Source: Cellvibrionales bacterium
GTDB lineage: Bacteria; Pseudomonadota; Gammaproteobacteria; Pseudomonadales; GM7GCV1
Assembly: GCA_014323765.1 (NCBI GenBank)
Contig: JACONM010000017.1
Coordinates: 5,949-69,948, forward strand
Length of the DNA: 64,000 bases
Direction: 5' to 3'
The number at the start of each line of letters is the position of its first letter. The stretch's first letter is position 1. The position numbers were made by a program, and so were the translations under genes. Below the pieces are notes generated by a model that saw only the letters and a program-made list of their open reading frames with translations, was not told the DNA's origin and did not search any database. Shown here piece by piece: positions 8,080 through 54,192 of this stretch.

Positions 8080-8112
8080 GCAATTCTTACCTCAAGCCCA
8101 GTAGAAAAAGAG

Positions 8113-8144
8113 AAGCCCCCCTGACAAGGGGGGTTGGGGGGTTG
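8113..8144. repeat. G/C-tract dispersed palindromic repeat CCCCCCTGACAAGGGGGGTTGGGGGGTTG
   Basis: Same unit recurs near 55707 and at 60050-60121. Confidence 0.75.
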
Positions 8145-8243
8145 ATTGGGCGGGGCTTGATTGGAGAGGTTGGAGAAGGTTCAATCGAACCCCCTCCCAC
8201 CCCAAAAAAACACCCCCACAAACCAGCCCACCCATCGCACCCC

Positions 8244-9617
8244 CTACTTCCAATCCCCAATCTCCGCCCGCGGAATACCCAAATTCTCGCGCAGGGTGGG
8301 GCCAAGGTATTCGCTTTTCACCACCCCGCGGCGTTGCAATTCGGGCACCACCAAGCGGCAGAAATCCTCATAGGTGCCGGGGATATAAGTGGGCGCCGTC
8401 ACAAACCCATCGCAGGCCCCGCTCACAAACCAGTCTTCCATCTGGTCGGCCACTTCCCCCGCCGTGCCGTAAATCAGCGGAAATTCACGGATAGTTGCAC
8501 GATGGGTAACTTTCAAAAAGTCATTCGTAGACGGGTTTTTAGTGCCGCTAATGTCCACCACCCGCTGCTTGTAGGACTGATTGCCGGTCATATTTTCCAT
8601 CTCCGCATCGCTGAATGGGTCATCCATCCCGCGCCCGGCAAAATCGTAATTGAAAAGTTCGGACAAATTGACCAGCTGATCAATGGGCTTGACCAAGGAA
8701 TCGAGCAACGCCACCTGATCCTCAGCCATAGCGCGAGTCTCCGCCACCACCGGAAAACAAGCGGTCGCAATACGCGCATGTTCCGGGTTGCGCCCGGCTT
8801 TGGCAATTTGCGCTTTCAACGCCTGATATTTTTTCTGCCCGACTTCCTTAGTGGGAAACAGCGAAAAAATAACCTCCCCCCAGCGAGCCGCAAACTCCAA
8901 CCCGCGAGCACTGCCGCCCGCCTGAATAATAATGGGCCGCCCCTGCGCCGAGCGCGGCACCGGCAAGGGACCAGCCGAGGCAAACCACTCGCCCTTATGC
9001 CCCAACGGATGCACCTTATCCGGGTCGGCAAAACGCCCGCTCGGCTTGTCGATAATAATCGCATCGTCCTCCCAAGTGTCCCAGTGGCCGAGCACCACTT
9101 CCATAAATTCATCGGCGCGATCGTAACGCTCCTCCGCCCCCAAGTGTTTTTCCCGCCCATAATTCGCTGCCTCGGAATCGTTCAACGAGGTCACCACATT
9201 CCACCCAGCGCGCCCGCCCAGCATCAGGTCCATGGTCGAAAAACTGCGCGCAATATGAAACGGCTCGTTATAGGTCGTCGAGCAGGTAGAAGCCACCCCT
9301 AAATAATTAGTGGCAAACCCCATAGCCAACATGATCGGATTCGGATCCATTTTCACCGTACGAATCCCATATTCCACCGCATCGCGATGGCTATTGTTAT
9401 ATTTATCCGGCATCGCCAAGCGATCATCGACAAACGCCAAATCAAAGCGGGCCGCTTCCAGCTCCCGGGCAATGCGCTGATAATAAGCCGCAGTGGTCGA
9501 ATCCGTAGCCGCCGCCGGGTGCCGCCAAGAAGCCGGAAAGTTAGAGCAATTTTGCGCCTGAATAAAAGCGATCAGGGCCATCTTGCGCGATGCAGAAGGG
9601 GCAGTTGATTTAGACAT
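8244..9617 (-). CDS. LLM-class FMN-dependent monooxygenase (NtaA/SnaA/DszA-type)
   Basis: FIQAQNCSNFPASWRHP, GGRAGWNVVTSLNDSEAANYG, PIIIQAGGSARGLEFAARWGEVIF. Confidence 0.93.
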   Translation of the reverse strand: MSKSTAPSASRKMALIAFIQAQNCSNFPASWRHPAAATDSTTAAYYQRIARELEAARFDLAFVDDRLAMPDKYNNSHRDAVEYGIRTVKMDPNPIMLAMGFATNYLGVASTCSTTYNEPFHIARSFSTMDLMLGGRAGWNVVTSLNDSEAANYGREKHLGAEERYDRADEFMEVVLGHWDTWEDDAIIIDKPSGRFADPDKVHPLGHKGEWFASAGPLPVPRSAQGRPIIIQAGGSARGLEFAARWGEVIFSLFPTKEVGQKKYQALKAQIAKAGRNPEHARIATACFPVVAETRAMAEDQVALLDSLVKPIDQLVNLSELFNYDFAGRGMDDPFSDAEMENMTGNQSYKQRVVDISGTKNPSTNDFLKVTHRATIREFPLIYGTAGEVADQMEDWFVSGACDGFVTAPTYIPGTYEDFCRLVVPELQRRGVVKSEYLGPTLRENLGIPRAEIGDWK

Positions 9618-37925: not shown

Positions 37926-40898
37926 ATGCGTAAATCAGCACTACTCGCCGCCGTCGCGGCCACACTAGCGGCTCTGTTCACAATGCCCATCGCGGCCCAA
38001 CCCAACTCTGCCCCCCCCCCCCAATTAATCGATGAGATCGTCATCACTGGCTACAAAGCCTCTCTCGGTGCCGCCATCGACCGCAAGCGCAACGCCTCCT
38101 CCATCCTCGATTCCATCAACGCCGAAGACATCGGCAAATTCCCCGACCAAAACGTCGCCGAATCCCTCTCCCGCATCTCCGGTGTCACCGTAACCCGCGA
38201 TTTCGGCGAAGGCGAAAAGGTCTCCATCCGCGGCACCCAAACCAACCAAAACCGCACCCTACTAAACGGCGTATCCGTCGCCTCCACCGACTGGTTCACC
38301 CTAGACCTCCCCTCCCGCGGCTTCAACTACCTAATCCTGCCGTCTAACCTAATCCGCTCCGCCGAAGTCTATAAATCCCCGCAAGCAAACATTCAAGAAG
38401 GCTCGCTCGGCGGCACGGTGGTCTTGAATACTCGCAAACCACTCGATTTCGAAGACCCAGATAGCGGCTTGCCCTTCACCTTTTCCGGCCAACTGGAATA
38501 TCAAGATTCCGACAATTCCGGCGAAAATGACCCGCAAGTCTCCACCTTATTTTCATGGAAAAACGGCGATGACACCGTGGGCGCGTTGCTTTCCTTTACT
38601 CGCCAAGAGCGCAGCCTGAACCGATTTGGCCGCGAAGTTGTTACATTTCTTGCTCCCGATAATGGAGATAACGAAACCGACGCATGGTTCCCGCGACTAA
38701 TTGGCGAGACCGATTTCCGCCAAGAACGGGTCCGTGAAACTATATTTGGATCCTTTCAATGGGCTCCCACCGATAATTTCGAAGCTACCTTAAATATCCT
38801 CGACACCAATCTAGATGCCAACAATATCAACCAGAACAACCTAATAACCGCCGGCCCAGATGGTACCAAGCCTGTTGAGCCCCTTGCAAATAATGTTACC
38901 TATGAAGGCTCAGGAGACGAGCGGGGCGTTGTGGCGGCTACCCTAGATGCCTCGGACCCGGTACCAGCAACACCAAACGATGCGGGCGAGTACGGTAATA
39001 GGTCAAATTCTGGCGGGCGCACACAGGCATTTGATCGTATCTCTAGCATTGAAACCCAGTCCTACGATCTAGAAGCAGTCTGGAAAAATGGCGGCAATGA
39101 ACTCACTGTCCGCATTGGCATGACCGACTCTGAAGGCGGTGCCCCCGACGAGCGCTACTGGGGCTTCACCACTGAAGGTAAGGTAGGTGAAAGGGGACCT
39201 AAAACAGCAGCAGACCCCAGAATAGACCGAGTAGGAGCCATTGACAGGATCACTTTTGATCGAAATCTGAATCTGCAATTCTTGACCCGTAATGATGCAA
39301 ACGGCAACGGTACGCTTGAAGACGATGAAACTGAGTTAGTCCCAGAGTCTCCAGAACAGTATCTAGCTCGCCCATTCGAGTTTGCAAACGCTCGATCCAC
39401 CGTGAATGAAGAAGAAGAAAGCTACCTAGGCATTGACTACGCCATGGATACGGATCTAGGAGCTTTCCAAACGGTAACCGTGGGCTTCCTCTACCGCGAC
39501 CGTGAAAAAGGGCGCACCGCTTCCATAACCGAATATCACCGCTGGACCGATGCGCAGCACACGGACGATGCGGCAGGATACGGCACGGTCAAGGATGGAG
39601 AAACTAATTGGTCCCAATCTCTCGCTGGCGGAACATTAGGGCAATACACAGCTGGCGAGCGCGGCGCAGACTACGAACTGATCGATTCCGCGACTGCCCG
39701 CCGACTCGCCAGCCCCGACCTCGCCACTCCTCCAGTGCCCGTTCTCACCAGGCCAAACTTGACGGATACTTGGACAGTGGAGGAAGAAATTTTTGCCGCT
39801 TACATCAAAGCCGAATTCTCTGAAGGCAATATCAGCGGCGATATTGGCTTGCGCGCAGTCTCTACCGATCTGTCTTCTACAGGTTGGGTTGCCAGTGCCA
39901 GCAGTGAAACTCCGGGTTGGGTAGAAGCGGCCAATGGTGCGTCTGCATCTATGGTCGGTGCCCATTTTCTTGCCACGGCTTTCGGTTGCCATAACTACGA
40001 TGAAACCCTGAACGGTGCGGCATCTGCAATGGCATCCGCGACGAAGCATTGCCAAGCAACCCTCACCACAGTGGATAACTCCTATACCGAGATATTGCCC
40101 AGTCTTAATGTTTCCTTTGACATGAGCGATAATACAAAACTGCGCTTTGCAGCCGCCCGCACCATGTCTCGCCCGGACCCTCAGTCCCTAGCCCTGCGCG
40201 AAAACTTTTTCGTCAATACCGCATCAGGCACTAGGGGCAACCCCAACTTGAAACCGATAACCGCCAATCAGTACGATCTGTCTTGGGAGCGGTATTTGAC
40301 CGCCGATGCATTGTTGGCTATCACCTACTTTTACAAGGATATTACCGGCAACCTGATCCCCGGCCAAGTGCAGGAAACCAGAACGGACCCGGATACAGGC
40401 AACAGGCTTGAAGTAACCTTCAATACGCCGGAGAACGCACAAGATGCCACTCTTGACGGCATCGAGCTGCTCTACCAGCAGCCGCTCGGTAACAATTTTG
40501 GCGTGGTTCTCAACTTCACTTGGACAGACTCAGAGACGGATGAGGAGCGCGATATTTACGGTCGCCCCGGCTCAGGCGTTGTGACTGGCGTATCCGACGA
40601 GGTCTACAACCTAACTGGCTACTACGAAGATGATCGCCTAGATGTTCGCGTCAGCTACAACTGGCGCTCCGAATACCTAAACGAGGTCGCCTACTTTGGT
40701 TCGGAGATTTGGACCGATGCTTATGGCCAGCTGGATATTTCCGCCAGCTACGACATCACCGATAATTTCGAGCTAACCTTTGATGCGCTAAATGTAACCG
40801 ACGAAGACATAGATCAGTACCACCTCATCACATCCCGCCCCTCCAAAATCTACGACAACGACCAGCGTTTCCTAGTGGGCCTCAACTTCAGCTTCTAA
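37926..40898 (+). CDS. TonB-dependent receptor (carbohydrate-type)
   Basis: Signal peptide; IDEIVITGYKASLGAAIDRKRNASSILDSINAEDIGKFPDQNVAESLSRISGV; ends FLVGLNFSF. Confidence 0.95.
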   Translation: MRKSALLAAVAATLAALFTMPIAAQPNSAPPPQLIDEIVITGYKASLGAAIDRKRNASSILDSINAEDIGKFPDQNVAESLSRISGVTVTRDFGEGEKVSIRGTQTNQNRTLLNGVSVASTDWFTLDLPSRGFNYLILPSNLIRSAEVYKSPQANIQEGSLGGTVVLNTRKPLDFEDPDSGLPFTFSGQLEYQDSDNSGENDPQVSTLFSWKNGDDTVGALLSFTRQERSLNRFGREVVTFLAPDNGDNETDAWFPRLIGETDFRQERVRETIFGSFQWAPTDNFEATLNILDTNLDANNINQNNLITAGPDGTKPVEPLANNVTYEGSGDERGVVAATLDASDPVPATPNDAGEYGNRSNSGGRTQAFDRISSIETQSYDLEAVWKNGGNELTVRIGMTDSEGGAPDERYWGFTTEGKVGERGPKTAADPRIDRVGAIDRITFDRNLNLQFLTRNDANGNGTLEDDETELVPESPEQYLARPFEFANARSTVNEEEESYLGIDYAMDTDLGAFQTVTVGFLYRDREKGRTASITEYHRWTDAQHTDDAAGYGTVKDGETNWSQSLAGGTLGQYTAGERGADYELIDSATARRLASPDLATPPVPVLTRPNLTDTWTVEEEIFAAYIKAEFSEGNISGDIGLRAVSTDLSSTGWVASASSETPGWVEAANGASASMVGAHFLATAFGCHNYDETLNGAASAMASATKHCQATLTTVDNSYTEILPSLNVSFDMSDNTKLRFAAARTMSRPDPQSLALRENFFVNTASGTRGNPNLKPITANQYDLSWERYLTADALLAITYFYKDITGNLIPGQVQETRTDPDTGNRLEVTFNTPENAQDATLDGIELLYQQPLGNNFGVVLNFTWTDSETDEERDIYGRPGSGVVTGVSDEVYNLTGYYEDDRLDVRVSYNWRSEYLNEVAYFGSEIWTDAYGQLDISASYDITDNFELTFDALNVTDEDIDQYHLITSRPSKIYDNDQRFLVGLNFSF
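38011..38022 (+). repeat. C12 homopolymer inside TonB receptor 5' coding region
   Basis: CTCTG-CCCCCCCCCCCC-AATTAATC, encodes APPPQ. Confidence 0.9.
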
Positions 40899-40916
40899 CC
40901 GGCTCCCAACCTCCAA

Positions 40917-40954
40917 TCCCTGACGAGGCACCTCCCCTCGTCAGGGATTTTTTT
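40917..40954 (+). terminator. Intrinsic terminator after TonB receptor
   Basis: TCCCTGACGAGG-caccTC-CCCTCGTCAGGGA stem followed by a T-tract. Confidence 0.9.
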
Positions 40955-40969
40955 ACTTGCAACCCAACC

Positions 40970-41662
40970 GTGCCACGCCTCACCATCGACCAACTAGATG
41001 CCCAAATAAAAGGCGGCTTAATCGCCTCCTGCCAACCCGTCACCGCCGGCCCGCTCGACACCTCCGAAATAGTCGCCGCCCTAAGTCAAGCCTGCCTCGC
41101 CGGCGGTGCCCGCGCCCTGCGCATTGAAGGTGCCAAACGGGTGCAAAAAGTCCGCCAAAATACCCAAGCTCCCATCATCGGCATAGTCAAACGCGATCTC
41201 CCCACCTCCCCCGTCCGCATCACCCCCCTATTGGCAGATGTCCGCGATCTAGCCGCCGCCGGCGCCGACATCATCGCCTTCGATTGCACCGACCGCCCCC
41301 GCCCCACCCCGCGCCCCGCTATAATCCAAGCCATTCACACCGCCGGCTGCATCGCCATGGCCGACTGCGCCACCCTCCCCGACATCGAATTCGCCCACGC
41401 CAACGGAGCCGAACTCATTGCCACCACCCTCTCCGGCTATACTGGCGAAAAAACCCCCGCTGAACCCGATTACGATCTCTTAAAAGCAGCTACAAAAATA
41501 GCCCCCCGCATCATCGCCGAAGGCCGCTTCAACACCCCCACCCGCGCCCAAAAAGCCATGCAACACGGAGCCTGGGCAGTAACAGTCGGCACCGCCCTAA
41601 CCCGCATTGAGCTAATCACCAAGTCCTTCGCCGATACCCTGCACCACAAAAACCCTAATTAA
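40970..41662 (+). CDS. nanE: N-acetylmannosamine-6-phosphate 2-epimerase
   Basis: GGLIASCQPVTAGPLDTSEIVAA, GADIIAFDCTDRPRP, IIAEGRFNTPTRAQKAMQHGAWAVTVGTALTR. Confidence 0.93.
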   Translation: MPRLTIDQLDAQIKGGLIASCQPVTAGPLDTSEIVAALSQACLAGGARALRIEGAKRVQKVRQNTQAPIIGIVKRDLPTSPVRITPLLADVRDLAAAGADIIAFDCTDRPRPTPRPAIIQAIHTAGCIAMADCATLPDIEFAHANGAELIATTLSGYTGEKTPAEPDYDLLKAATKIAPRIIAEGRFNTPTRAQKAMQHGAWAVTVGTALTRIELITKSFADTLHHKNPN

Positions 41663-41663
41663 A

Positions 41664-42932
41664 ATGACCGCCCGCTACCTCAGCCTATTAGCAAGCCTCT
41701 TTATTGCATTGGCGGTGATCGCCTTCATCGCCCGCACCCCCCCGCCGGCAGACGACTGCACCCCCATCGAATTCTGGACCATGCAATTATCCCCCGTCCT
41801 AGACGATTACTTAAACCAAGCCATCGCCGACTACGAACAGCTAAATCCCCACATAAAAATCAAATGGGTCGATGTCGCCTGGGCCGATATGGAACGCAAA
41901 CTGCTCGCCGCCGTCGCCGCCAACACCGCCCCCGACATCGCCAACCTAAACCCCCAATTCTCCTCCAAGCTGGCCGAATTCGCCGCTCTACACAACCCCG
42001 AACAGTTCATGGCGCAAACAGCCATCGCCAATTACTTCCCCAAAGTCTGGCAAGCCAACCAGCTACACGGCCAAATCTTCGGTGTCCCCTGGTATTTATC
42101 CACCAACATCGCCATTTACAACCGCGCCCTATTCACCGCCGCCAACGCCCCCTTCCCCCAAACCCTCGCCGACATCCCCGCCATCGGCCGGCAAATCAAA
42201 CAAGCTACCGGCGCCTACAGTTTCTTCCCCAGCTTCGACGGCAGCGAATTATTAGAAAATCATGTTTTACTAGGCGGCCAATTCACCCCCGCAGACAACA
42301 GACTGCACCCCGCAGATGTCCGCCGCACCCTAGCCTATTACCGCGACCTCTATCAAAGCGGCGCCGTCCCCCCCTCCGTCCTAATTGACGGCCACCAAAA
42401 AGCCCTAGACCTCTTCCAATCCGGCCAGCTCGCCATCTTATTAAGCGGTGCCCACATGCTCCACAGCATTATGCTAAACGCCCCCAAACTAGCCGATCAA
42501 ATAACCGTCGGCCCCCACCCCAAATCCGCCAACGACACCGTAAATATCGCCGCCATGAATCTCGTCGTACCACGCCAAAGCGACCACCCGCAAAAGGCAT
42601 TTGATTTTGTCGCCTTCATCACCTCCCCCGCCCGCCAAGCAGAAATGGCCACCCACGTACCGGTCTTCCCATCGACCCCCGCCAGCCTAAACGCCCCCAT
42701 TTTTACCAACGCAGATCCGGACAACCCCCAATACGAACAAGCCAAAGCCTACTCCATCGCCCAGCTAAAAAAAGGCGAAGTGTTATTACCCCCAATGCAA
42801 CGCTATTCCAAATTAAACACCGTTTTCGCCCGCCAAACGCAACGCGTCATGCTTGAAGAAATATCTCTCACCGAAGGCACCACCAAACTAATCGCCGATT
42901 GGAATAAAATAACGCGAGCCTCCCATGACTAA
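41664..42932 (+). CDS. ABC transporter sugar-binding protein
   Basis: IEFWTMQLSPVLDDYLNQAIADYEQLNPHIKIKWVDV; N-terminal signal/TM. Confidence 0.9.
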   Translation: MTARYLSLLASLFIALAVIAFIARTPPPADDCTPIEFWTMQLSPVLDDYLNQAIADYEQLNPHIKIKWVDVAWADMERKLLAAVAANTAPDIANLNPQFSSKLAEFAALHNPEQFMAQTAIANYFPKVWQANQLHGQIFGVPWYLSTNIAIYNRALFTAANAPFPQTLADIPAIGRQIKQATGAYSFFPSFDGSELLENHVLLGGQFTPADNRLHPADVRRTLAYYRDLYQSGAVPPSVLIDGHQKALDLFQSGQLAILLSGAHMLHSIMLNAPKLADQITVGPHPKSANDTVNIAAMNLVVPRQSDHPQKAFDFVAFITSPARQAEMATHVPVFPSTPASLNAPIFTNADPDNPQYEQAKAYSIAQLKKGEVLLPPMQRYSKLNTVFARQTQRVMLEEISLTEGTTKLIADWNKITRASHD

Positions 42933-43884
42933 ATTCGTTATGGCCTACGACATTGGCGGAACCAAAATAAAAGCCGGCCTCATCGCCCCCTCCGGCGAAA
43001 TACAAGACCAAGCCACCGCCGCCTCCCACGCCCAAGGCGGCCCGCAGGCCATTATGGCCTCCGCCACCCAATTAACCGAACAAATTATGGCCCGCAATAA
43101 AGAAATAAAAATTATCGGCACCGGCATCGCAACCGCCGGCGTCGTAGATAAAAAACAAGGCAAAATCAGTGCCTCCGCCAACCACATAGCCGACTGGCAA
43201 AACTTCCCCATCCAAACCGCCTTCACCCAGCTTCTCGGCAAACACACAGTCATCGACAACGATGGCAACTGCGCCCTGCTCGCCGAAGTCCATGCCCAAT
43301 CCCTCGAACAGAGCGATATTATTTTCCTCGCCCTCGGCACCGGGCTCGGCGGTGCCATCTATTCCAATGGAAAAATCCGCACCGGCAAAACATCCCTAGC
43401 TGGCCATTTCGGCCAGACCCTAATCGGAGATCTATCCACCCCAGAAAATTGGCAGTGCCTAGAGACCATCCTCTCCGGCAGCGGCTTAGCCAAACTCGCC
43501 CGCCAAAAAATAACGCAGCACGAATCCGTCCCCACCGCCAAAGAACTATTCCCCGATAGCCGCGCCGTCCTGCGGGCGATAGCCAATAACACCGCCGCCC
43601 AAGCAGCCCTCACCCAATGGATTCATCTATTGGCCAACACCTGCCACAGCCTTCAATGGAATTATGACCCCGACATCCTCATCCTCGGCGGCGGCTTAAT
43701 TGACGCGGCAAAAATTTGGTGGCACCAATTCACCGCATGCCTTACCCAAATAAATTCAAACCACCATCTCCCCGCCCCAATGGATGTGCGCCCCGCCATC
43801 CTCGGCAACGATGCAGCAATGGTAGGCGCAGGATTAATGGCTTGGCATGCCATCATCGACAAGGAACATTCCCATGCTGCCTAG
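42925..43884 (+). CDS. ROK family sugar kinase (possible N-acetylmannosamine kinase)
   Basis: YDIGGTKIKAGLI, DNDGNCALLAEVHAQS, FLALGTGLGGAI. Confidence 0.9.
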   Translation: MTKFVMAYDIGGTKIKAGLIAPSGEIQDQATAASHAQGGPQAIMASATQLTEQIMARNKEIKIIGTGIATAGVVDKKQGKISASANHIADWQNFPIQTAFTQLLGKHTVIDNDGNCALLAEVHAQSLEQSDIIFLALGTGLGGAIYSNGKIRTGKTSLAGHFGQTLIGDLSTPENWQCLETILSGSGLAKLARQKITQHESVPTAKELFPDSRAVLRAIANNTAAQAALTQWIHLLANTCHSLQWNYDPDILILGGGLIDAAKIWWHQFTACLTQINSNHHLPAPMDVRPAILGNDAAMVGAGLMAWHAIIDKEHSHAA

Positions 43885-44740
43885 ATTAACCCCCTACCTA
43901 TTCCTATCGCCGGCCCTTTTCATCATCGGCACCTTCGTATTCCTGCCAATGCTCGCCGCCCTATTGATCAGCCTCAGCGATTACAATATGATCGAAACGC
44001 CCCGCTGGCTTGGGTTAGCCCAATATCAACGCCTTTTCCAAGACCCATTTTTCTGGAACGCCCTCGGCAATAGCCTACTTTACCTACTCATCGTCGTACC
44101 GATACTCTCCATCGCCCCCATATTTTTAGCGGTACTGGTAAATAAAAAAATCCCCGGTATCGCATTTTTCCGCAGCCTGTATTATCTACCCGTCGTAACT
44201 TCCCTCATCGTAACCGGACTCATGTGGAAATGGGTCTATGAAGAAAACGGAGTCCTAAACTTTATCCTCCAGAGCCTACACCTCATCAACACACCCATCG
44301 CATGGTTAGCAGACCCTTCCCTATCCTTATTCGCAGTAATGGCAGTGACCGTATGGACCGGCATGGGTTTTTACATGGTCATTTATCTCGCCGGCCTCCA
44401 ATCCATCCCCAAATCCCTCTACGAAGCCGCCGAACTACAAAATATCAGCCGCCTAAAACAAACCCTCTTCATCACCATCCCCATGCTACGCCCTTATATT
44501 GCCCTAGTCGCCGTCATATCCTCCATTGCCGCCATGAAAATCTTCGAGGAAATCTACGTCATCACCGGCGGCGGCCCCTTGAGTCAGACCGAAACATTGG
44601 TATTCTTTATCTACGAAAATGCCTTTATCGAATTCGATATGGGCTACGCCTCGGCAGCCGGAATAGTCCTATTCTGCGTAACCTTTATCCTCTCCATCCT
44701 AAACCTGCTATTGACCAGAGAAACCACCAATGAAAAATAA
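43874..44740 (+). CDS. Sugar ABC transporter permease (MalF/UgpA-type)
   Basis: YEAAELQNISRLKQTLFITIPMLRPYIAL EAA-loop; start at MLPRLTPYL. Confidence 0.92.
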   Translation: MLPRLTPYLFLSPALFIIGTFVFLPMLAALLISLSDYNMIETPRWLGLAQYQRLFQDPFFWNALGNSLLYLLIVVPILSIAPIFLAVLVNKKIPGIAFFRSLYYLPVVTSLIVTGLMWKWVYEENGVLNFILQSLHLINTPIAWLADPSLSLFAVMAVTVWTGMGFYMVIYLAGLQSIPKSLYEAAELQNISRLKQTLFITIPMLRPYIALVAVISSIAAMKIFEEIYVITGGGPLSQTETLVFFIYENAFIEFDMGYASAAGIVLFCVTFILSILNLLLTRETTNEK

Positions 44741-45617
44741 CTCAAATCAGTCGCTGGCAATACCCCACTTCTCCCTGTCGGCCATGCCAGCCATACTCGG
44801 ATGGATGCGCCGACTTGGGCAGTACACAGTTCTTGCCTCCATCGCGCTCTTATTTATCGGCCCATTCCTATGGCTACTCTCAACCGCCCTCAAATCCGGC
44901 TCAGAAAACATCTTTCAATACCCCCCCGACCTAATTCCCGATGAACCAACCCTAAGCAACTTTGCGCGAGTCTTTGAAGCCGTACCCTTCCTAACCTATT
45001 TCTTCAACTCCGCCCTAGTAGCCGCCCTCGCCGTATCCTGCAATTTGCTTTTCTGTTCCCTCGCCGCCTATCCCCTAGCGCGCCTAAAATTTGCCGGCAA
45101 AAATGCGCTGTTCTTATTATTGATCAGCACCATGATGCTCCCATTCCAACTGCTAATGATTCCCCTCTACACCATCGCCGTCAATCTCGGCCTCAATAAT
45201 TCCTATCTTGGCCTCATCGTCCCCCACGCCTGCACCGCCTTTGGCGTATTCTTAATGCGCCAGGCTTTCTTAACAATCCCCAAACAATTAGAGGAATCCG
45301 CCTATATAGAGGGGCTTAATCACTGGCAAATTTGGTGGCACATAATGCTACCGCTCGTAAAACCAACCCTAGCCACCCTAGCCGTCTTCACTTTTATTGG
45401 CGTATGGGGCGATTTTCTCTGGCCACTAATTATCATGGATGAGCAAGCCAAATTCACCCTCCCACTAGGTGTCAATAAATTGGCAGGAACCTTCGGCAAA
45501 GATTGGCGCCTAGTCGCCGCCGGGGCCATCCTATCCATCATCCCAACGCTGATCGTTTTCGTTTTTACCCAGCGTTATTTTATCTCCGGCGCACTAAAAA
45601 ACGCCGTCAAAGGTTAG
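44730..45617 (+). CDS. Sugar ABC transporter permease (MalG/UgpE-type)
   Basis: LEESAYIEGLNHWQIWWHIMLPLVKPTLATLAVFTF. Confidence 0.93.
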   Translation: MKNNSNQSLAIPHFSLSAMPAILGWMRRLGQYTVLASIALLFIGPFLWLLSTALKSGSENIFQYPPDLIPDEPTLSNFARVFEAVPFLTYFFNSALVAALAVSCNLLFCSLAAYPLARLKFAGKNALFLLLISTMMLPFQLLMIPLYTIAVNLGLNNSYLGLIVPHACTAFGVFLMRQAFLTIPKQLEESAYIEGLNHWQIWWHIMLPLVKPTLATLAVFTFIGVWGDFLWPLIIMDEQAKFTLPLGVNKLAGTFGKDWRLVAAGAILSIIPTLIVFVFTQRYFISGALKNAVKG

Positions 45618-45632
45618 GCAAAGGTTTTCCCC

Positions 45633-48215
45633 ATGCGTAAAAAAGCCGCCCTCGTCGTACAAACCCATTGGGACCGTGAATGGTACCTAACCAATGAGGA
45701 GTACAGTGCCCGCCTATTGCGGGTGTTCCCCACCATCCTCAATGCGCTAGACACCGGCCAAATTGACCGATTTCTTTTCGACGGCCAAACCGCCGCGCTA
45801 GAAGATCTAATGGCACATTGCGAGAAACAGATCGCCGAGCGAACATGCGCCTACATTAGATCCGGCAAAATCAACATCGGCCCCTGGTACGCCATGCCCG
45901 ATGAAAACCTATGCGCCGGCGAGTCCCTCATCCGCAACCTAGAAGAGGGAATAACCACATCCAAATCTTATGGCGAGAAAAATTTCCTCGGTTATCTCCC
46001 CGACACCTTCGGGCATGTCGCGCAAATGCCCCAAATTTTTGCTGGCTTTGGCATCGAACATGCCGTGGTCTGGCGCGGCGTTAATATCCCCAGCGACCTA
46101 TTCCAATGGCAATCCCCAAATGGCCAAAGCGTCATCTGCCTATTTCTCCCCGAAGGCTATTATCAGCAACCCTTTTCCAAGCAAAACTACCTAGAAGCGG
46201 TGCAGTCGTATTTTCAGAAAGTAGAGCAAGACTTTCCCCAGGCAGGGCTACTACTAACCCAAGGGGGCGATCACTTAGTACCGCCACAGGATCTCAAAAA
46301 TCGAATCACCCATTTCAACCAAGCCCAGCAAACTTATCGAGTCAAACAAACAACGCTACAAGACCACATTAACCAGCGCATAGCCGAAACCAAAAACCTT
46401 CCAATCCTGCAGGGCGAACTACGCGATAACACCAATAGCTATATTTTACCCGATGTCCTCTCCACCAGACGCTACCTCAAACGGCATAACCAAGAATTGG
46501 AAGACAGACTCATCGGCCAAATAGAACCACTATTAGCCGCCATAGATAACTTTGCACCCCAGTATCCACACCGCTATTTACGCCAAACATGGCAGCTACT
46601 GTTGCAGCAACATGCCCATGACTCCATCTGCGGATGCAGCATCGATGCGGTGCATGCCGAGATGCTAGTACGCTTCCACCGCATCAAAGATCGCCTCAAT
46701 GCGCTACAAACCCTAGCCTGCGAACATATTGGCCTCCAAAACCCCTACCTTAATACCCAAGACCCAAAATCCCCCTCCCCCTTCGCCGACGATACCAAAA
46801 TAACCGCATTCAACCCATCGCTCAAAGCACGTTCCGGCTGGCATTACATTCAATTTTTTATCAGCGGCGACCCAATCGATAACCTAAAAATATCGGATAC
46901 AGCCGGGACGGTCTATGCCACTGCAATAGTAGATCGGCAACCACACCGCGACTTCACCTCACCCATAGATGACTTCCCCGAGCATGTAGCAGGCCACCTC
47001 TACACAGCCTTTATCCGTATGGAAATGGAAGGCTGGGCAAGCAAAAACCTGATCATCGTCCCCACCAAAACACTCCCGACGCAGCAAGATAATCAAGGTA
47101 CTACCGCCACCCACTCCATCAGCAACGCATCCATGACCATCGCAGCCGATAAAGAAAACGGCATCGTCATTACCAACCATCATAACAGCCAAACGCCTAA
47201 ACAAGCCCTTGCAATTATTTCTCAGGGAGATGCCGGAGACAGCTACAATTATTCACCACCACCAAATAATTGGTGCGTCAAGGCGACCATAACCGATATA
47301 AAAACCTGCTTTATCGAAAAACAGTATCAAGAACTGCGCATCAATTTTTCTCTCGAGCAGCCAGCATCTCTCAACACAACCCGATCTGGACCAAGCAAAG
47401 AATCGGTAACTTCAAAAGGCCATCTCATATTACGCCTCCTCGCCGATGAGCCTTTTATACGGGCCAAACTAACCTGGAATAACAAAGCCAAAAACCACCG
47501 CTTGCGCCTGCATTTACCGCTCGGCAAAAACATCCCAAGTTCACACAGCGATTCCGCCTTCGCATTCATTAAACGCCCGGTAACGTACCGCCAACAACGC
47601 ACCAAAATTGCACCGCAAGAGATCCCCCCGTGCGTTCACCCTTCCTATTCCCTCATCCAAGCAGGCGAACACATACTGATACACCGCGCCCTAAATGAAT
47701 ATGAAATTGTCAAAGGCGCACAGGGCGATACACTCGCGCTAACCCTATCGCGCTCAGTAGGCTGGCTATCGCGCCGCGATCTAATAGACCGCGGCCAAGG
47801 CGCCGGCCCCGATTTTGCGACTCCGGAAGCGCAATGTTTGGGCGAGGATTACTTTGAATTCGTTCTAGCCAACACCCATGATTTTACCCCCGAGCAGGCA
47901 CTGGCACAGGCCAACGATCTGCGTCGTCCCATCATGTTTCTACGCGGCCACGGCCAAGTCAGCAACAAAAAATTACAAATTAAAGCAGACACTGTTATCA
48001 TCTTTTCTTGCCGCAAAATCGAAGATAAAATCGAAGTGAGGCTATTCAACCCCAGCAACGCCCCGCAGAAATTCGCTATCATTGGAGGCACCGCAGAGCG
48101 CGTCACCCTAGCAGGCACATCGATCAGTTGCATAGAAGACAGCAAACACCAAGATACCCAGCCCGCTCAAGTCATAGCCCCGCATGAAATTGTAACCCTG
48201 AGGATCAAACAATGA
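45633..48215 (+). CDS. GH38 alpha-mannosidase
   Basis: QTHWDREWYLTNEEYSARLLRVF, DTFGHVAQMPQIFAGFGIEHAVVWRG, QQHAHDSICGCSIDAVH. Confidence 0.95.
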   Translation: MRKKAALVVQTHWDREWYLTNEEYSARLLRVFPTILNALDTGQIDRFLFDGQTAALEDLMAHCEKQIAERTCAYIRSGKINIGPWYAMPDENLCAGESLIRNLEEGITTSKSYGEKNFLGYLPDTFGHVAQMPQIFAGFGIEHAVVWRGVNIPSDLFQWQSPNGQSVICLFLPEGYYQQPFSKQNYLEAVQSYFQKVEQDFPQAGLLLTQGGDHLVPPQDLKNRITHFNQAQQTYRVKQTTLQDHINQRIAETKNLPILQGELRDNTNSYILPDVLSTRRYLKRHNQELEDRLIGQIEPLLAAIDNFAPQYPHRYLRQTWQLLLQQHAHDSICGCSIDAVHAEMLVRFHRIKDRLNALQTLACEHIGLQNPYLNTQDPKSPSPFADDTKITAFNPSLKARSGWHYIQFFISGDPIDNLKISDTAGTVYATAIVDRQPHRDFTSPIDDFPEHVAGHLYTAFIRMEMEGWASKNLIIVPTKTLPTQQDNQGTTATHSISNASMTIAADKENGIVITNHHNSQTPKQALAIISQGDAGDSYNYSPPPNNWCVKATITDIKTCFIEKQYQELRINFSLEQPASLNTTRSGPSKESVTSKGHLILRLLADEPFIRAKLTWNNKAKNHRLRLHLPLGKNIPSSHSDSAFAFIKRPVTYRQQRTKIAPQEIPPCVHPSYSLIQAGEHILIHRALNEYEIVKGAQGDTLALTLSRSVGWLSRRDLIDRGQGAGPDFATPEAQCLGEDYFEFVLANTHDFTPEQALAQANDLRRPIMFLRGHGQVSNKKLQIKADTVIIFSCRKIEDKIEVRLFNPSNAPQKFAIIGGTAERVTLAGTSISCIEDSKHQDTQPAQVIAPHEIVTLRIKQ

Positions 48216-49318
48216 CCGCCATCAGTCTCCGGCAGGTAGAGAAAAAAATCGGTGCCGAGCGCATCATCCACCCGATTGATTTACAAATCCAAAGCGGCGA
48301 ATTTATCGTTTTCGTCGGCCCTTCCGGTTGCGGAAAATCGACCCTTTTACGCATGCTCGCCGGGCTTGAACCGGTCAGCCACGGCGAGATCTATTATGAT
48401 GCGCTAAACGTTACCAAAATGGCCGCCCGCAAACGACAAGTGGCCATGGTATTCCAATCCTACGCCCTCTACCCCCACATGAATGTCGAGCAAAACCTAA
48501 GTTTTGGCTTGCGCATGACCGGGCACAGCAAGCAAGAAATTACCCGGCGGGTAGGCAAAGCGGTAGATATGTTGCGCCTTGGCGATTATTTATCGCGGAA
48601 ACCCGGGCAGCTTTCCGGCGGCCAATGCCAGCGCGTCGCCATTGGCCGTGCCCTAGTCCAACAACCCAAAATCTTTTTGTTTGATGAACCGCTATCCAAT
48701 CTCGATGCCGATCTTCGCAGCGCAATGCGCATAGAAATTGCCCGATTGCATGCGGAGCTCGGCACTACCATGGTCTATGTTACCCATGATCAAGTAGAGG
48801 CCATGACGCTGGCCGATCGCATCGCAATACTCAACGCTGGTCGCATCGAGCAAATCGGCACCCCCGATGATATTTACAAACACCCGCAAAATATCTTTGC
48901 CGCCGAATTTATGGGGACCCCCAAAATCAATCTCCTAGCCGGCGAAGTTCGCCAAGAAGATGGCCTCTGGTTTATAGCGCAAGATGAGCCGCAAAATGGG
49001 ATAAAAATCAAACTTGACCCAAATCTTTGCCGGTTATCAGATGGCAAAAAATGCACGATCGCAATTCGCCCCGAAGACATTGAGTTAGTAGCAGATTCCG
49101 CATTAAAGCTCAAAGTCGAGCATATGGAAAAACTCGGCACCAACACCCATTATTTCGGTAAAATTGGACAGCAAAGTTTGCGCCTATCAGCGCATCGCAC
49201 GGCAGAGATAACAGTCGGCAATGAACTTGCCATTCATATCCCCGCCGAAAAACTGCATTTTTTTAACCGCTCCGGCCAACGCATCCCCGCTAACAGATCC
49301 AAGTTACCTGCCCCATAA
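48212..49318 (+). CDS. Sugar ABC transporter ATPase (MalK/UgpC/MsmX-type)
   Basis: VGPSGCGKSTLLRMLAGLEP, LSGGQCQRVAIGRALV, FLFDEPLSNLDA. Confidence 0.96.
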   Translation: MTAISLRQVEKKIGAERIIHPIDLQIQSGEFIVFVGPSGCGKSTLLRMLAGLEPVSHGEIYYDALNVTKMAARKRQVAMVFQSYALYPHMNVEQNLSFGLRMTGHSKQEITRRVGKAVDMLRLGDYLSRKPGQLSGGQCQRVAIGRALVQQPKIFLFDEPLSNLDADLRSAMRIEIARLHAELGTTMVYVTHDQVEAMTLADRIAILNAGRIEQIGTPDDIYKHPQNIFAAEFMGTPKINLLAGEVRQEDGLWFIAQDEPQNGIKIKLDPNLCRLSDGKKCTIAIRPEDIELVADSALKLKVEHMEKLGTNTHYFGKIGQQSLRLSAHRTAEITVGNELAIHIPAEKLHFFNRSGQRIPANRSKLPAP

Positions 49319-49332
49319 AAAAATCAGCTACC

Positions 49333-50850
49333 ATGCAAAACAAAAAACTTCTCATCATCCCCATCGATGATCGCCCGGTAGTCTGCGCACAGCTACAAGA
49401 CCTTGCTGCCCTTGCCGATTGGCAGGCCATCCTACCCCCGCATAACCTATTGGGGCATATGCGCAAAACGGCGGATACCAATAGCTTAGCAGAATGGCTG
49501 TTTGCCCGCTGCGATGCCGCCGATGGCTTTGTCCTATCCCTCGATAGCCTGATTTATGGCGGTTTAATTGCAAGTCGTATTTCAACTGATTCCATCGCCA
49601 CGCTAGATAAACGCAGCCAAATTATCAGCCGCCTACGCGAACATGTTGGCAGCAAGCCAATCTATGCTTTTTTATCCAACATGCGCATCGCTAATAGCAA
49701 CGTGAATGAGGAGGAAAAGCCGTATTGGCAAGACTACGGCACCCTTATCTGGCAATGGTCCTATTACAGCGACAAACATGCCATGTGTTCACAAGCAGAT
49801 GATTTGTACCGCGCCCATGCCGCCAAGACACAGATCCCTGAACATATCCGCACGGATTACCTCCACACACGCAAACGCAACCTAGCATTAACCAATAGCG
49901 TCATTGACCAAGTCCTAACCCACCAATTAGACCGCCTAATCCTACCCCAAGATGATAATGCTCCCTACGGCTTCCACATCAACGAGATACGCCGCCTTCA
50001 CACCCGCATCGCGCAGCTACAGCTAGAAGACAGAATCAAAATTTATTCAGGGACCGACGAAGTGGCATGGACCCTAACATCGCGACTCATTTCCAAACTT
50101 GAAGGACGCAGTGCCAGAAAAATATACCTCAGTTGGCATCGCGGCCAGACCGCACAAAAAATAATACCGTTTTATGAAGATCAGCCTATCTCAATAGCGG
50201 TTGCAAGCCAGATCAATGCAGCGGGAAGCGAGATAACGGAAAATATAGAAAATGCCGATCTGGTATTGGCCATTCATAGCCCAGAATCTTCGCAAGGCGA
50301 CTGGGCGCTGCAAAAACCACTACAAGAGCAAAGCGTTTCTTGCGCAAGTTGGATTAAAGAATTGGCGGACTTGCAAAAATCCGCTAAGCCCATAGCGATT
50401 GCAGATCTCGCCTACGCCAATGGGGGAGATCCGGATTTTTTCAACATGATGTTGGAGCGGTTAGACATGCGACACATTATTGCTTATAGCGGCTGGAACA
50501 CAGCCAGCAACAGCCTAGGCACAGTCGCCGCACAAATGCAGCTTGCCGAGCTAGACAAAATATCCCAAAACCAGCTTAAGTTACTAGGAACGCGCTTAGT
50601 TGATGATGTTTTCTATCAGGCCATCTTCCGCCAAGATTTGCGCAAGCAAATCGTAAATGCAACCCCACCGGATAAAACCAAGTCAAAGTTTAGGCAATCC
50701 GCGAATCAATGGCTAATAGACAAAGGAATGCCATTTATGCAAATCGACCATGTTACCTTTCCATGGGAACGCAGCTTTGAAATTGGCTTTGAGTGTCGAA
50801 TAGACCCCAAGCAGGCACCGATCAACAAAATCAAGGGAAAATTGCAATGA
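49333..50850 (+). CDS. DUF4127 family protein
   Basis: IIPIDDRPVVCAQLQDLA, LSLDSLIYGGLIASR, LPQDDNAPYGFHINEIRRL, YSGTDEVAWTL. Confidence 0.85.
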   Translation: MQNKKLLIIPIDDRPVVCAQLQDLAALADWQAILPPHNLLGHMRKTADTNSLAEWLFARCDAADGFVLSLDSLIYGGLIASRISTDSIATLDKRSQIISRLREHVGSKPIYAFLSNMRIANSNVNEEEKPYWQDYGTLIWQWSYYSDKHAMCSQADDLYRAHAAKTQIPEHIRTDYLHTRKRNLALTNSVIDQVLTHQLDRLILPQDDNAPYGFHINEIRRLHTRIAQLQLEDRIKIYSGTDEVAWTLTSRLISKLEGRSARKIYLSWHRGQTAQKIIPFYEDQPISIAVASQINAAGSEITENIENADLVLAIHSPESSQGDWALQKPLQEQSVSCASWIKELADLQKSAKPIAIADLAYANGGDPDFFNMMLERLDMRHIIAYSGWNTASNSLGTVAAQMQLAELDKISQNQLKLLGTRLVDDVFYQAIFRQDLRKQIVNATPPDKTKSKFRQSANQWLIDKGMPFMQIDHVTFPWERSFEIGFECRIDPKQAPINKIKGKLQ

Positions 50851-51866
50851 TACAAACACTCATGCAAAAAGAGGCTCAGGAGGCCGCAGAACGAGTCGCT
50901 TTGCAAAATGACGGCCTCAATGGCACTTTAAAGGAACTCGCGCAGAGAATCGCGCACAATGATCTGGATCTTATCCAAATTTGCGCTCGCGGCAGCTCAG
51001 ATCACGCTGGCCTGTTTGCCAAATATGTCTTTGAGCGCGAACTCAAAATCCCCGTTGCGTCGGTTACACCATCGATAGCTTCTGTCCATGGGGTGGATCT
51101 GAAGTTACCCAAAACACTGTTCATCGTCATTTCACAATCCGGTCAAAGCCCAGATATTATTCTCAGCGCAGAAGCCGCTAAGCGGGCCGGTGCTACCATC
51201 CTAGCCATTGTCAATGATACAGAATCGCCGTTAGCCAAAATATCGCATATTGTGCTACCCATGCATGCCGGCCCTGAACACAGCGTCGCCGCGACCAAAT
51301 CATTTATCTGCTCCCTTGCCATTATTTTGAAAATGGTAGCAAGCCTCGATAGCTCCTGTTCATTTGCAGACGAATTGAAAAACCTACCACAGCACCTAAT
51401 GCAAGCGGCACAATTACAGTGGACACAGTTTATTGATACTATGTGCAGGGCTAGACATGTCTTCATGTTAGGTCGCGGCACGGGCTATGCCATTGCGCGC
51501 GAAGCGGCCCTCAAGCTAAAAGAGACCAGTGCTCTGCACGCCGAATCTTACAGCCTAGCGGAAGTTGCACACGGCCCCATGGAAATTGTCAATAAATCTT
51601 TCCCTGTCCTTATCTTTGACACGGAAGCTAAAATTGGCGTGGAAAAAGTCCTGGATAAATTTGGCACCGCCGGGGCGGATATTTTTCTTGTTGGCCGCAA
51701 GGTGCCCGGTACACATCATTTAAGCTCCATCTCCGCATCGTCGCCCTACATCAAAGCCATCCTACAAATTCAAAGCTTTTATCTTGCCGCCAATGCAATC
51801 GCCATTGCCCGTGAACGCAATCCAGATTCACCCCAACACCTTAAAAAGGTTACCCAGACTCTCTGA
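50847..51866 (+). CDS. Double SIS-domain protein, NagB-II/GlmS-like aminosugar deaminase or isomerase
   Basis: ICARGSSDHAGLFAKYVFE, FIVISQSGQSPDIILSAEAAKRAG, LGRGTGYAIAREAALKLKETSALHAES. Confidence 0.9.
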   Translation: MIQTLMQKEAQEAAERVALQNDGLNGTLKELAQRIAHNDLDLIQICARGSSDHAGLFAKYVFERELKIPVASVTPSIASVHGVDLKLPKTLFIVISQSGQSPDIILSAEAAKRAGATILAIVNDTESPLAKISHIVLPMHAGPEHSVAATKSFICSLAIILKMVASLDSSCSFADELKNLPQHLMQAAQLQWTQFIDTMCRARHVFMLGRGTGYAIAREAALKLKETSALHAESYSLAEVAHGPMEIVNKSFPVLIFDTEAKIGVEKVLDKFGTAGADIFLVGRKVPGTHHLSSISASSPYIKAILQIQSFYLAANAIAIARERNPDSPQHLKKVTQTL

Positions 51867-51877
51867 GAGAGATTCCC

Positions 51878-53026
51878 ATGCCAACACAATTTCTAAACGC
51901 CACCCTCTTACACCCGGCCCCAATGGAGCGCACCAGCTTCACCGTTATCGATGGCCGCTTTACCGGTTTTAATCAAGCACCGCATGCTGAAGATATACAA
52001 GTGGACCTAGATGGCCAGTTCGTCATCCCCGGCCTGTTTGATGCACAGGTCAATGGCGTGGGCGGCATCATGTTTAATGACAACCCATCGCTGGATACGA
52101 TCCGCCACATGTCCGCGGTGCTGGCAACCCTAGGCACCACTTCTTTTCTACCAACACTGGTCAGCGATGATCTAGAGAAAGTAAAACTAGCTATCGAAGC
52201 AGTGGCATCCGCCATTGCTCTAAAAGTGCCCGGCGTTAGGGGTATTCACCTTGAAGGCCCCTTTTTGAACAGCCAAAAGAAAGGAGTCCACAACGCGCAA
52301 AAATTTAGAAAACTAGACGACAATTCCATCGACCTAATCAGCACCCTCACAAACGGCAAAACACTCATCACCCTAGCCCCCGAACTAACCTCCCCCCAAC
52401 TAATTGCCGAGCTAGTCAGGCGCGGCATTATTGTCGCCGCAGGCCATACCATGGCCAATTTTACGCAGACCCAGATCGCCCTTAAAGCCGGCTTAACCGG
52501 CTTCACCCATCTATTCAACGCAATGCCACAAATAGAAAGCCGCAATCCGGGCTGTATTGTCGCCGCCTTAGAATCAAAAAACAGCTTTTGCAGTCTGATT
52601 GTCGATGGCCATCACGTCGACCCGGCCTTACTGCGCATGGCACTGCGCGCCAAATCTGGCAATCAGGGCATGTTCCTAGTATCCGATGCAATCAGCAGCG
52701 TGGGCACTGATAAAAAAGAATTGCAGCTGGCCGGCCAAAAACTCTTTATTAAAAACGGCAAATGCACCACCGCAGAGGGAACGCTGGCCGGAGCCCACCT
52801 ATCCCTGTGGGAAGCAGTACAAAACGCCGCCAAACTCTTGAATATCGAATTCGCCACCGCCGTGGAAATGGCAACGGCCACCCCAGCCGGCTTCATGCAT
52901 CTGGATAAAGAAATTGGCAGAATTACCGCCGATCTATGCGCTGATTTTCTAGTTCTAGACCAGCAAAAAAACCTGCGCCAAACATGGGTCGCAGGCCAGT
53001 GCGTTCACGACTCATTAAAAAATTGA
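51878..53026 (+). CDS. nagA: N-acetylglucosamine-6-phosphate deacetylase
   Basis: FVIPGLFDAQVNGVGGIMFND, IHLEGPFLNSQKKGVHN, GFTHLFNAMPQIESRNPG. Confidence 0.95.
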   Translation: MPTQFLNATLLHPAPMERTSFTVIDGRFTGFNQAPHAEDIQVDLDGQFVIPGLFDAQVNGVGGIMFNDNPSLDTIRHMSAVLATLGTTSFLPTLVSDDLEKVKLAIEAVASAIALKVPGVRGIHLEGPFLNSQKKGVHNAQKFRKLDDNSIDLISTLTNGKTLITLAPELTSPQLIAELVRRGIIVAAGHTMANFTQTQIALKAGLTGFTHLFNAMPQIESRNPGCIVAALESKNSFCSLIVDGHHVDPALLRMALRAKSGNQGMFLVSDAISSVGTDKKELQLAGQKLFIKNGKCTTAEGTLAGAHLSLWEAVQNAAKLLNIEFATAVEMATATPAGFMHLDKEIGRITADLCADFLVLDQQKNLRQTWVAGQCVHDSLKN

Positions 53027-53154: not shown

Positions 53155-54192
53155 ATGCCCCGCCTACCCTCACCCATCATTCCGGCACTCACCCTCGCCG
53201 CCATCCCCCTGATCGCGGCAACCATCCCAACACTATGGCAACGCCCCCCAGAATCGCCGACCCCCGCCGCCAGCACCCCCACCGCCTGCCTAGACAACCC
53301 CGCCCACCAAACCCAAATGCTAACCATCCCCGCCGGCACTTTTACCCTAGGCGCCGGTGCCCGCTATCCGGAAGAACGCCCGCAACAGCAGTTCACCCTA
53401 AACAGCTTCCGCCTCAGCCGCACCGAGGTCACCAACGCCCAATTCGCCGCCTTTGTCGCCGCCACTGGTTACGTCACCCTAGCCGAGCACCCCCCCAACG
53501 CCGCCGACCACCCCAATATCCCCGCCGAACTACTCAAACCCGGTGCGGCAGTTTTCGCCCCGCCCACCAACTCCGCCAACCCACTCAGCGGCTGGCAATT
53601 TATCGAAGGAGCCAGCTGGCGCACCCCCACCGGCCCCGGCAGCAATATCGCCGGGCGCGACCACTTCCCCGTCATCCACATTGCCTTCGCCGATGCCCAA
53701 GCCTACGCCGCCTGGAAAGGCCACCGCCTGCCCACCGAAGCCGAGCACGAATACGCAGCACGCGGCGGGCAAGAGGGCACCACCTTCGCCTGGGGCGACC
53801 AGTTCCTCATCGATGGCCAACACCAAGCCAACACTTGGCAAGGTGCCTTCCCCTTCTTCAACAGCCGCGCCGATGGCCACGCCGGCCTCGCCCCAGTCGG
53901 CTGCTACCCGCCCAACGGCTACGGGCTGCACGACATGATCGGCAACGTCTGGGAATGGACCAGCACCCCCTATTACCCCTCCCACCAACCCGCCGCCCCA
54001 TCTCCCGCAAAAGACCAAGCCGACCCCGGCCATGACCCCCACCAACCCGGCGTCCCCGTGCGCGTCATCAAAGGCGGCTCCTACCTCTGCGCCCCCAATT
54101 ATTGCCAACGCTACCGCCCCGCCGCCCGCCAAGCGCAAGACACCGGCCTCGGCACCGCCCACATCGGCTTCCGCACCGCACAAGACCTCTAA
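53155..54192 (+). CDS. Formylglycine-generating enzyme (SUMF1/FGE) family, secreted/anchored
   Basis: [42 protein letters not shown]-term [19 protein letters not shown]...HIGFR keeps both FGE cysteines. Confidence 0.92.

Follow-up and report, generated by a model that had tools for sequence, protein, structure and literature searches.

A conserved DUF4127 protein linked to N-acetylmannosamine metabolism is a candidate sugar-cleaving enzyme

Which enzyme would free N-acetylmannosamine (ManNAc) from the short glycan that a ten-gene bacterial operon very probably imports and degrades inside the cell? The operon lies at 40970-53026, on the + strand, of a 64,000-nucleotide stretch of a Cellvibrionales contig (the window), and it encodes a complete route from ManNAc to fructose-6-phosphate, along with an importer, a GH38 protein, and a protein of the family DUF4127 (PF13552). 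DUF4127 is unstudied and strongly conserved, and because it is tied to ManNAc metabolism across distantly related bacteria, we consider it a good candidate for an unrecognized sugar-cleaving enzyme. The initial annotation of the window had proposed it for the step that frees an N-acetylhexosamine (HexNAc), and context from other genomes supports this. From that context, we infer that DUF4127 is a cytoplasmic enzyme that cleaves N-acetylmannosaminides or their phosphorylated forms. The genes of the operon are as follows:

40970..41662, + strand: NanE, N-acetylmannosamine-6-phosphate 2-epimerase (PF04131, E = 2e-71; PRK01130, 278.4 bits, above the cut-off of 189)
41664..42932, + strand: substrate-binding protein (SBP) of an ATP-binding cassette (ABC) transporter (PF13416/PF01547; closest PDB entry 6wpm)
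42925..43884, + strand: ROK sugar kinase (PF00480, E = 1.9e-43; NanK model, 116.2 bits, below the equivalog cut-off of 450)
43847..44740, + strand: ABC permease of the MalF/UgpA type (PF00528; UgpA/GlcT-like)
44730..45617, + strand: ABC permease of the MalG/UgpE type (PF00528; UgpE/GlcU-like)
45633..48215, + strand: GH38 alpha-mannosidase-like enzyme, predicted to be cytoplasmic (PF01074, E = 3e-33; PF09261; MngB model, 395.4 bits)
48212..49318, + strand: ABC ATPase of the UgpC subfamily (PRK11650, 448.5 bits, above the cut-off of 432)
49333..50850, + strand: DUF4127 protein (PF13552, E = 1.7e-128, whole profile)
50847..51866, + strand: SIS-domain protein of the glucosamine-6-phosphate deaminase NagB-II type (PF01380; NagB-II model NF046059)
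51878..53026, + strand: NagA, N-acetylglucosamine-6-phosphate deacetylase (TIGR00221, 270.1 bits, above the cut-off of 225.65)

These genes are closely spaced: neighbors are -38 to +15 bases apart, taking the ATG at 50847 as the start of the SIS gene. The ROK gene overlaps the first permease gene, the two permease genes overlap each other, and the GH38 and ATPase genes share 4 bases. DUF4127 and SIS share ATGA if the SIS gene begins at that ATG; a start at GTG 50793 would give a 58-base overlap. The near-continuous run described in the initial annotation is borne out, and Pfam and NCBIfam agree with all ten assignments; what it had missed is a TonB receptor gene upstream, a hairpin, and the low G+C content of the locus.

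Comparisons of sequence support the identities of these genes. The closest PDB chain to NanE is 3q58 (E = 7e-66). The ROK protein belongs to its family and is probably a kinase for ManNAc or another HexNAc, and the SIS protein, whose relatives in the PDB include 8eol (E = 2e-66), scores 308 bits against the NagB-II equivalog, versus a cut-off of 430, with this still its top model. The closest relative of the SBP in the PDB is MsBP from Synechococcus, which owes its annotation to its resemblance to a KEGG cluster for chitobiose binding and was found to prefer phosphate-modified sugars (PMC8938411); this likeness is only a weak hint about the ligand.

We propose that an oligosaccharide would enter uncut through the TonB receptor and then through the ABC importer, and that the cytoplasmic GH38 would trim alpha-mannose from it. 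DUF4127 would then split the glycosidic bond of the ManNAc unit (or possibly of its 6-phosphate) to yield ManNAc or ManNAc-6-phosphate, ROK would phosphorylate the sugar where needed, NanE would convert ManNAc-6-phosphate to N-acetylglucosamine-6-phosphate (GlcNAc-6-phosphate), and NagA and the NagB-II-like enzyme would convert that to fructose-6-phosphate. Import followed by cytoplasmic processing, and the funnel through NanE, ROK, NagA, and SIS, had both been suggested beforehand, and both hold up, with SIS as the NagB-II-like enzyme. In DUF4127, strand 1 begins at residue 4 and the invariant residues P10, D12, and R14 follow soon after; in GH38, the conserved H12 and D14 are similarly close to the start. 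So neither protein has room for a signal peptide (the initial annotation had noted that neither shows an obvious one), which supports a cytoplasmic location. Taken as a whole, the model is of a laterally acquired operon for the uptake and catabolism of a mannose-capped, ManNAc-containing oligosaccharide from which DUF4127 frees ManNAc or ManNAc-6-phosphate. We would stop just short of betting on every part of it at once.

Could another enzyme free the amino sugar? There is no recognized sialate lyase (NanA) among the genes of the operon, and we did not search the rest of the genome for one. The initial annotation had held that a hexosaminidase elsewhere that is co-regulated with the locus, or a published non-hydrolytic function for DUF4127, would count against its proposal. 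The genome (assembly 91.6% complete) has no GH20 protein, and its single GH3 protein, of about 806 amino acids, is too long to be NagZ; other families of hexosaminidases were not searched. As for the literature, DUF4127 and PF13552 are not mentioned in the open-licence papers searched, so no non-hydrolytic function was found there, and no paper in the literature that we searched uses the word N-acetylmannosaminidase.

The link to ManNAc comes from the neighborhoods of DUF4127 in other genomes. Among 400 genomes of Bacilli (the class of Fictibacillus), 61 encode DUF4127. NanE lies within 13 kilobases of DUF4127 at 18 of the 40 higher-scoring places and at none of the 27 divergent ones. Put another way, NanE is near DUF4127 in 18 of the 25 genomes that have both, versus about 0.13 expected by chance, with related genomes treated as independent in these counts. 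On the DUF4127 tree, the NanE label changes 4 times, versus about 20 times when shuffled, so the linkage follows the clades of DUF4127. Since NanE is the recurrent partner, often together with ROK and RpiR, the sugar is more plausibly ManNAc than N-acetylglucosamine (GlcNAc). The initial annotation had proposed a mannosyl/HexNAc substrate: the HexNAc part stands and is better named ManNAc, while the mannosyl part is secondary and optional across loci.

The common gene set in Bacilli is an SBP, permeases, an FAD oxidoreductase (PF12831), ROK, DUF4127, NanE, and an RpiR regulator; a GHL10 hydrolase is often present too. One RpiR regulator is known to bind ManNAc-6-phosphate (PMC12713135). A cyanobacterial metagenome-assembled genome (MAG; L006) also has a GHL10 hydrolase about 1 kilobase from DUF4127 (4451-5926 and 6987-8474), a pairing that many loci in Bacilli share. 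In a gammaproteobacterial MAG (L002), the order is TonB receptor, NanE, SBP, ROK, permeases, GH38, ATPase, and DUF4127. In a Burkholderiales MAG (L004), the SBP and a divergent NanE are on one contig, and ROK, permeases, GH38, DUF4127, and ATPase are on a second.

The case for glycosidic-bond cleavage by DUF4127 is strongest at two minimal plasmid loci with a phosphotransferase system (PTS). Carnobacterium pCAR50 has consecutive genes for NanE, a HAD hydrolase, DUF4127, PTS IIC, and an RpiR regulator, and an Enterococcus plasmid has RpiR, a lactose/cellobiose PTS IIA, NanE, HAD, DUF4127, and a PTS IIC of the lactose/cellobiose family. Neither locus encodes a glycosidase besides the candidate DUF4127. 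The lactose/cellobiose PTS family typically imports beta-disaccharides and phosphorylates the non-reducing sugar, which gives 6-phosphorylated disaccharides. If a phospho-disaccharide is delivered, NanE could act only once it had been split, and apart from the HAD phosphatase these loci have no unassigned gene other than DUF4127. So the substrate of DUF4127 may be a 6-phosphorylated disaccharide.

What does the protein itself suggest? The window's DUF4127 matches PF13552 with 429.7 bits (gathering score 27) over positions 2-488 of 489. Across 69 homologues, D12, R14, R82, R118, D208, D242, T390, N393, and several glycines are invariant, and D207, E243, E282, D358, R180, R251, R480, and E483 are nearly so; there is no conserved histidine or cysteine among them. 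In an AlphaFold2 model (mean pLDDT 90.5, pTM 0.92), most of the most conserved residues come after the C-terminal ends of predicted strands, and this set looks like the active site of an enzyme. Because the model is confident, the obvious catalytic candidates are few, and the operons are small enough to express, a single enzyme assay could address the question.

Some results weigh against a ManNAc-glycoside-cleaving role. DUF4127 has no detectable similarity to glycosidases, whether by Pfam (E up to 10) or by PDB sequence or fold: PF13552 is its sole Pfam match at that threshold, it has no NCBIfam match, and it has no sequence relative with a solved structure. A structural comparison with glycosidases, as the initial annotation had recommended, gave no match to a known glycosidase fold, and a Foldseek search of the PDB gave no convincing fold match of any kind (best E = 7e-4, TM 0.22, with spurious alignments). 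Also, the ROK and SIS proteins both score below their equivalog cut-offs, and several clades of DUF4127 lack NanE, such as Paenibacillus-like loci and solitary genes in Gastranaerophilales.

Perhaps DUF4127 is not a glycosidase, and it instead removes a substituent from an imported amino sugar, or rearranges one (for example, a lactyl ether or a pyruvyl, acyl, or phosphodiester group), after which the sugar would go on to the kinase and NanE. Its fold is unlike that of a classical glycosidase, its many conserved arginines would fit an anionic group, genes for acetyl-xylan-esterase-like proteins and alpha/beta hydrolases recur beside it, and RpiR regulators also serve N-acetylmuramic acid (MurNAc) 6-phosphate (models of the MurR type match). 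However, this would leave the minimal PTS loci without an enzyme to split the disaccharide, unless what the PTS brings in is a substituted monosaccharide, and with no conserved histidine or cysteine, no classical esterase triad is apparent. We think that this explanation is unlikely, if worth keeping in mind.

It is more doubtful that DUF4127 acts after an oxidation, with an FAD or GFO/IDH/MocA oxidoreductase forming a keto-glycoside that DUF4127 would cleave non-hydrolytically, by elimination or hydration. PF12831 oxidoreductases are present in 32 of the 67 sampled DUF4127 contexts, and GFO-type oxidoreductases in others, but no such gene is adjacent at the window, L002, L004, Carnobacterium, or Enterococcus loci, and we consider this mechanism improbable. 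It would also be surprising if the locus used just free ManNAc or GlcNAc and mannosides, with DUF4127 a protein of cell-wall housekeeping or regulation that is there incidentally: the solitary genes in Gastranaerophilales, which lack transporters, would fit, but in Pseudomonadota as well as in Bacilli, DUF4127 is repeatedly and tightly linked to NanE and to importers, which argues against it.

Returning to cleavage of ManNAc glycosides, the clades without NanE imply that the family cannot be uniformly ManNAc-specific, and specificity may vary within it. The Paenibacillus-like loci have an ABC transporter, an FAD oxidoreductase, and DUF4127. At L100 (8937-16613), DUF4127 is found with an EF_0837-type amidohydrolase, a protein like the D-glucosaminate-6-phosphate ammonia-lyase DgaE, a PfkB kinase, and a GH130 phosphorylase, possibly as a mannosyl-amino-sugar-acid pathway; L103 carries the same types of genes, judging by their sizes. 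All of these loci look like sugar or amino-sugar catabolism. Also, in NanE-less Bacilli loci (L070-L077), a 228-amino-acid protein with no Pfam match lies between the SBP and the first permease (for example, L072:4728-5414). Whether this might be a diverged NanE is no more than a lead: an hhalign alignment was collinear with E = 0.0026 but had a probability of 11%, and the catalytic lysine motif is apparently missing.

GH38 is not the defining partner of DUF4127 either. It adjoins DUF4127 at 3 of the 40 Bacilli places examined, on Priestia plasmids, and in all three loci from proteobacteria, and the loci with GH38 fall in two separate clades of the DUF4127 tree. We rejected GH38 as the defining partner because most loci do without it, and a mannosyl substrate is therefore not what defines DUF4127. 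The window's GH38 is about 33% identical to that of Priestia; its closest PDB entries are 3lvt, 5kbp, and 2wyh. Two of its domains score above their cut-offs (PF01074, 115.8 versus 25 bits; PF09261, 45.7 versus 31.1 bits), while the C-terminal domain PF07748, at 13.8 bits, is below its cut-off of 25. H12, D14, D124, and H329, which correspond to the zinc ligands and the nucleophile of the family, are invariant in seven GH38 proteins from these loci. The suggestion that the operon consumes eukaryotic N-glycans is not favored, as these would not need NanE and would leave it unexplained.

Several known systems resemble this operon in part. Operons for sialic acid utilization (NanE, NanK, NagA, NagB, and the RpiR-type NanR) share the NanE-kinase-NagA-NagB funnel to fructose-6-phosphate, whereas the window's operon lacks a recognized sialate lyase and adds GH38, DUF4127, and a TonB receptor. 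In chitobiose/cellobiose PTS operons (Chb, with a ChbF-type enzyme), the Enterococcus and Carnobacterium loci have their closest parallel of layout: DUF4127 is where the phospho-glycosidase would be expected, it replaces GH1 or GH4, and NanE is present. The window has an ABC transporter and ROK instead of the PTS. The mannosylglycerate hydrolase MngB is the top NCBIfam model for the window's GH38, yet the score is far below the cut-off of 1138 bits, and the partner genes differ. Finally, NamZ/YbbC (GH171, formerly DUF1343), from the MurNAc operon of Bacillus subtilis, was a DUF in an amino-sugar operon regulated by an RpiR/MurR protein, and it turned out to be a new family of glycosidases. NamZ is a precedent by type of operon; the Pfam scan found no GH171 match and no sequence link to DUF4127, with no direct comparison to the GH171 profile made.

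ManNAc is a building block of the linkage units of Gram-positive wall teichoic acids, of secondary wall polymers, and of related bacterial glycans. DUF4127 might be the first family in a new fold class among enzymes that cleave glycosides, and might supply the missing (6-phospho-)N-acetylmannosaminidase, which bacteria of several phyla would use to eat or recycle cell-wall or capsule glycans that contain ManNAc. We think that this broader proposal is possible but on balance doubtful. If it is true, then a role could be assigned to a Pfam family that has had none, and a gap in the catabolism of amino sugars would be filled.

How did the operon reach this lineage? DUF4127 is present in 1 of 5 genomes sampled at the family level and in 1 of 399 drawn from the phylum, and both times it is the window's own. 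In a maximum-likelihood tree of 67 DUF4127 proteins, the window groups with L002 and L004 (support 100/99), and these three nest within an 11-member clade in which the remaining eight come from Bacilli (support 99/94). In all 11 members of this clade, DUF4127 is linked to NanE; in L004, the link spans two contigs that seem to be adjacent. The G+C content of the locus is 51.7%, versus 60.2% for both flanks, and is the minimum among 104 windows of equal length. Given its low G+C content, the rarity of DUF4127 in the phylum, and the nesting among Bacilli, the locus looks horizontally acquired, and the simplest reading is lateral transfer of a NanE-DUF4127-transporter unit into the window's lineage. 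Proteins of this family also occur in viral and phage sequence sets: A0A346TNQ6 (693 amino acids), from the BFVD viral library, has the DUF4127 fold (TM 0.78, E = 1.9e-28), and phrog_20208 (PHROG, function unknown) matches DUF4127 at 1e-29. A phage collection yielded just a short, weak fragment of DUF4127, and a search of viral contigs yielded none. Separately, the L013 contig (labeled Fusobacterium sp.) is nearly gene-for-gene identical around DUF4127 to L014 (labeled Melainabacteria), which probably reflects mis-binning.

Two features lie just upstream of the operon:

37926..40898, + strand: TonB-dependent receptor of the Xanthomonas/Caulobacter type (TIGR01782, 619 bits versus a cut-off of 310; Pfam plug and barrel)
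40915..40949, + strand: terminator-like hairpin with 14 pairs and a T tail (pattern scan), between the receptor and the operon

The receptor gene stops 71 bases upstream of NanE, and its counterpart in L002, at 52% identity, is likewise 5' of the corresponding operon; it is likely the entry for the oligosaccharide through the outer membrane. The hairpin has the longest stem listed by a scan that found a near-chance number of sites in the region overall, so the idea that it sets the ratio of receptor to operon expression is only suggestive.

On the other side, 128 bases past NagA, is a FGE/SUMF1-like gene (53155-54192; PF03781, E = 7e-74) with a motif like those of formylglycine-generating enzymes. 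Its high G+C content (66.7%) suggests that it is outside the acquired locus. There are five sulfatase genes elsewhere in the genome. At the left end of the window, a trehalase (137-1243; PF01204, E = 3e-112) is unrelated to the locus.

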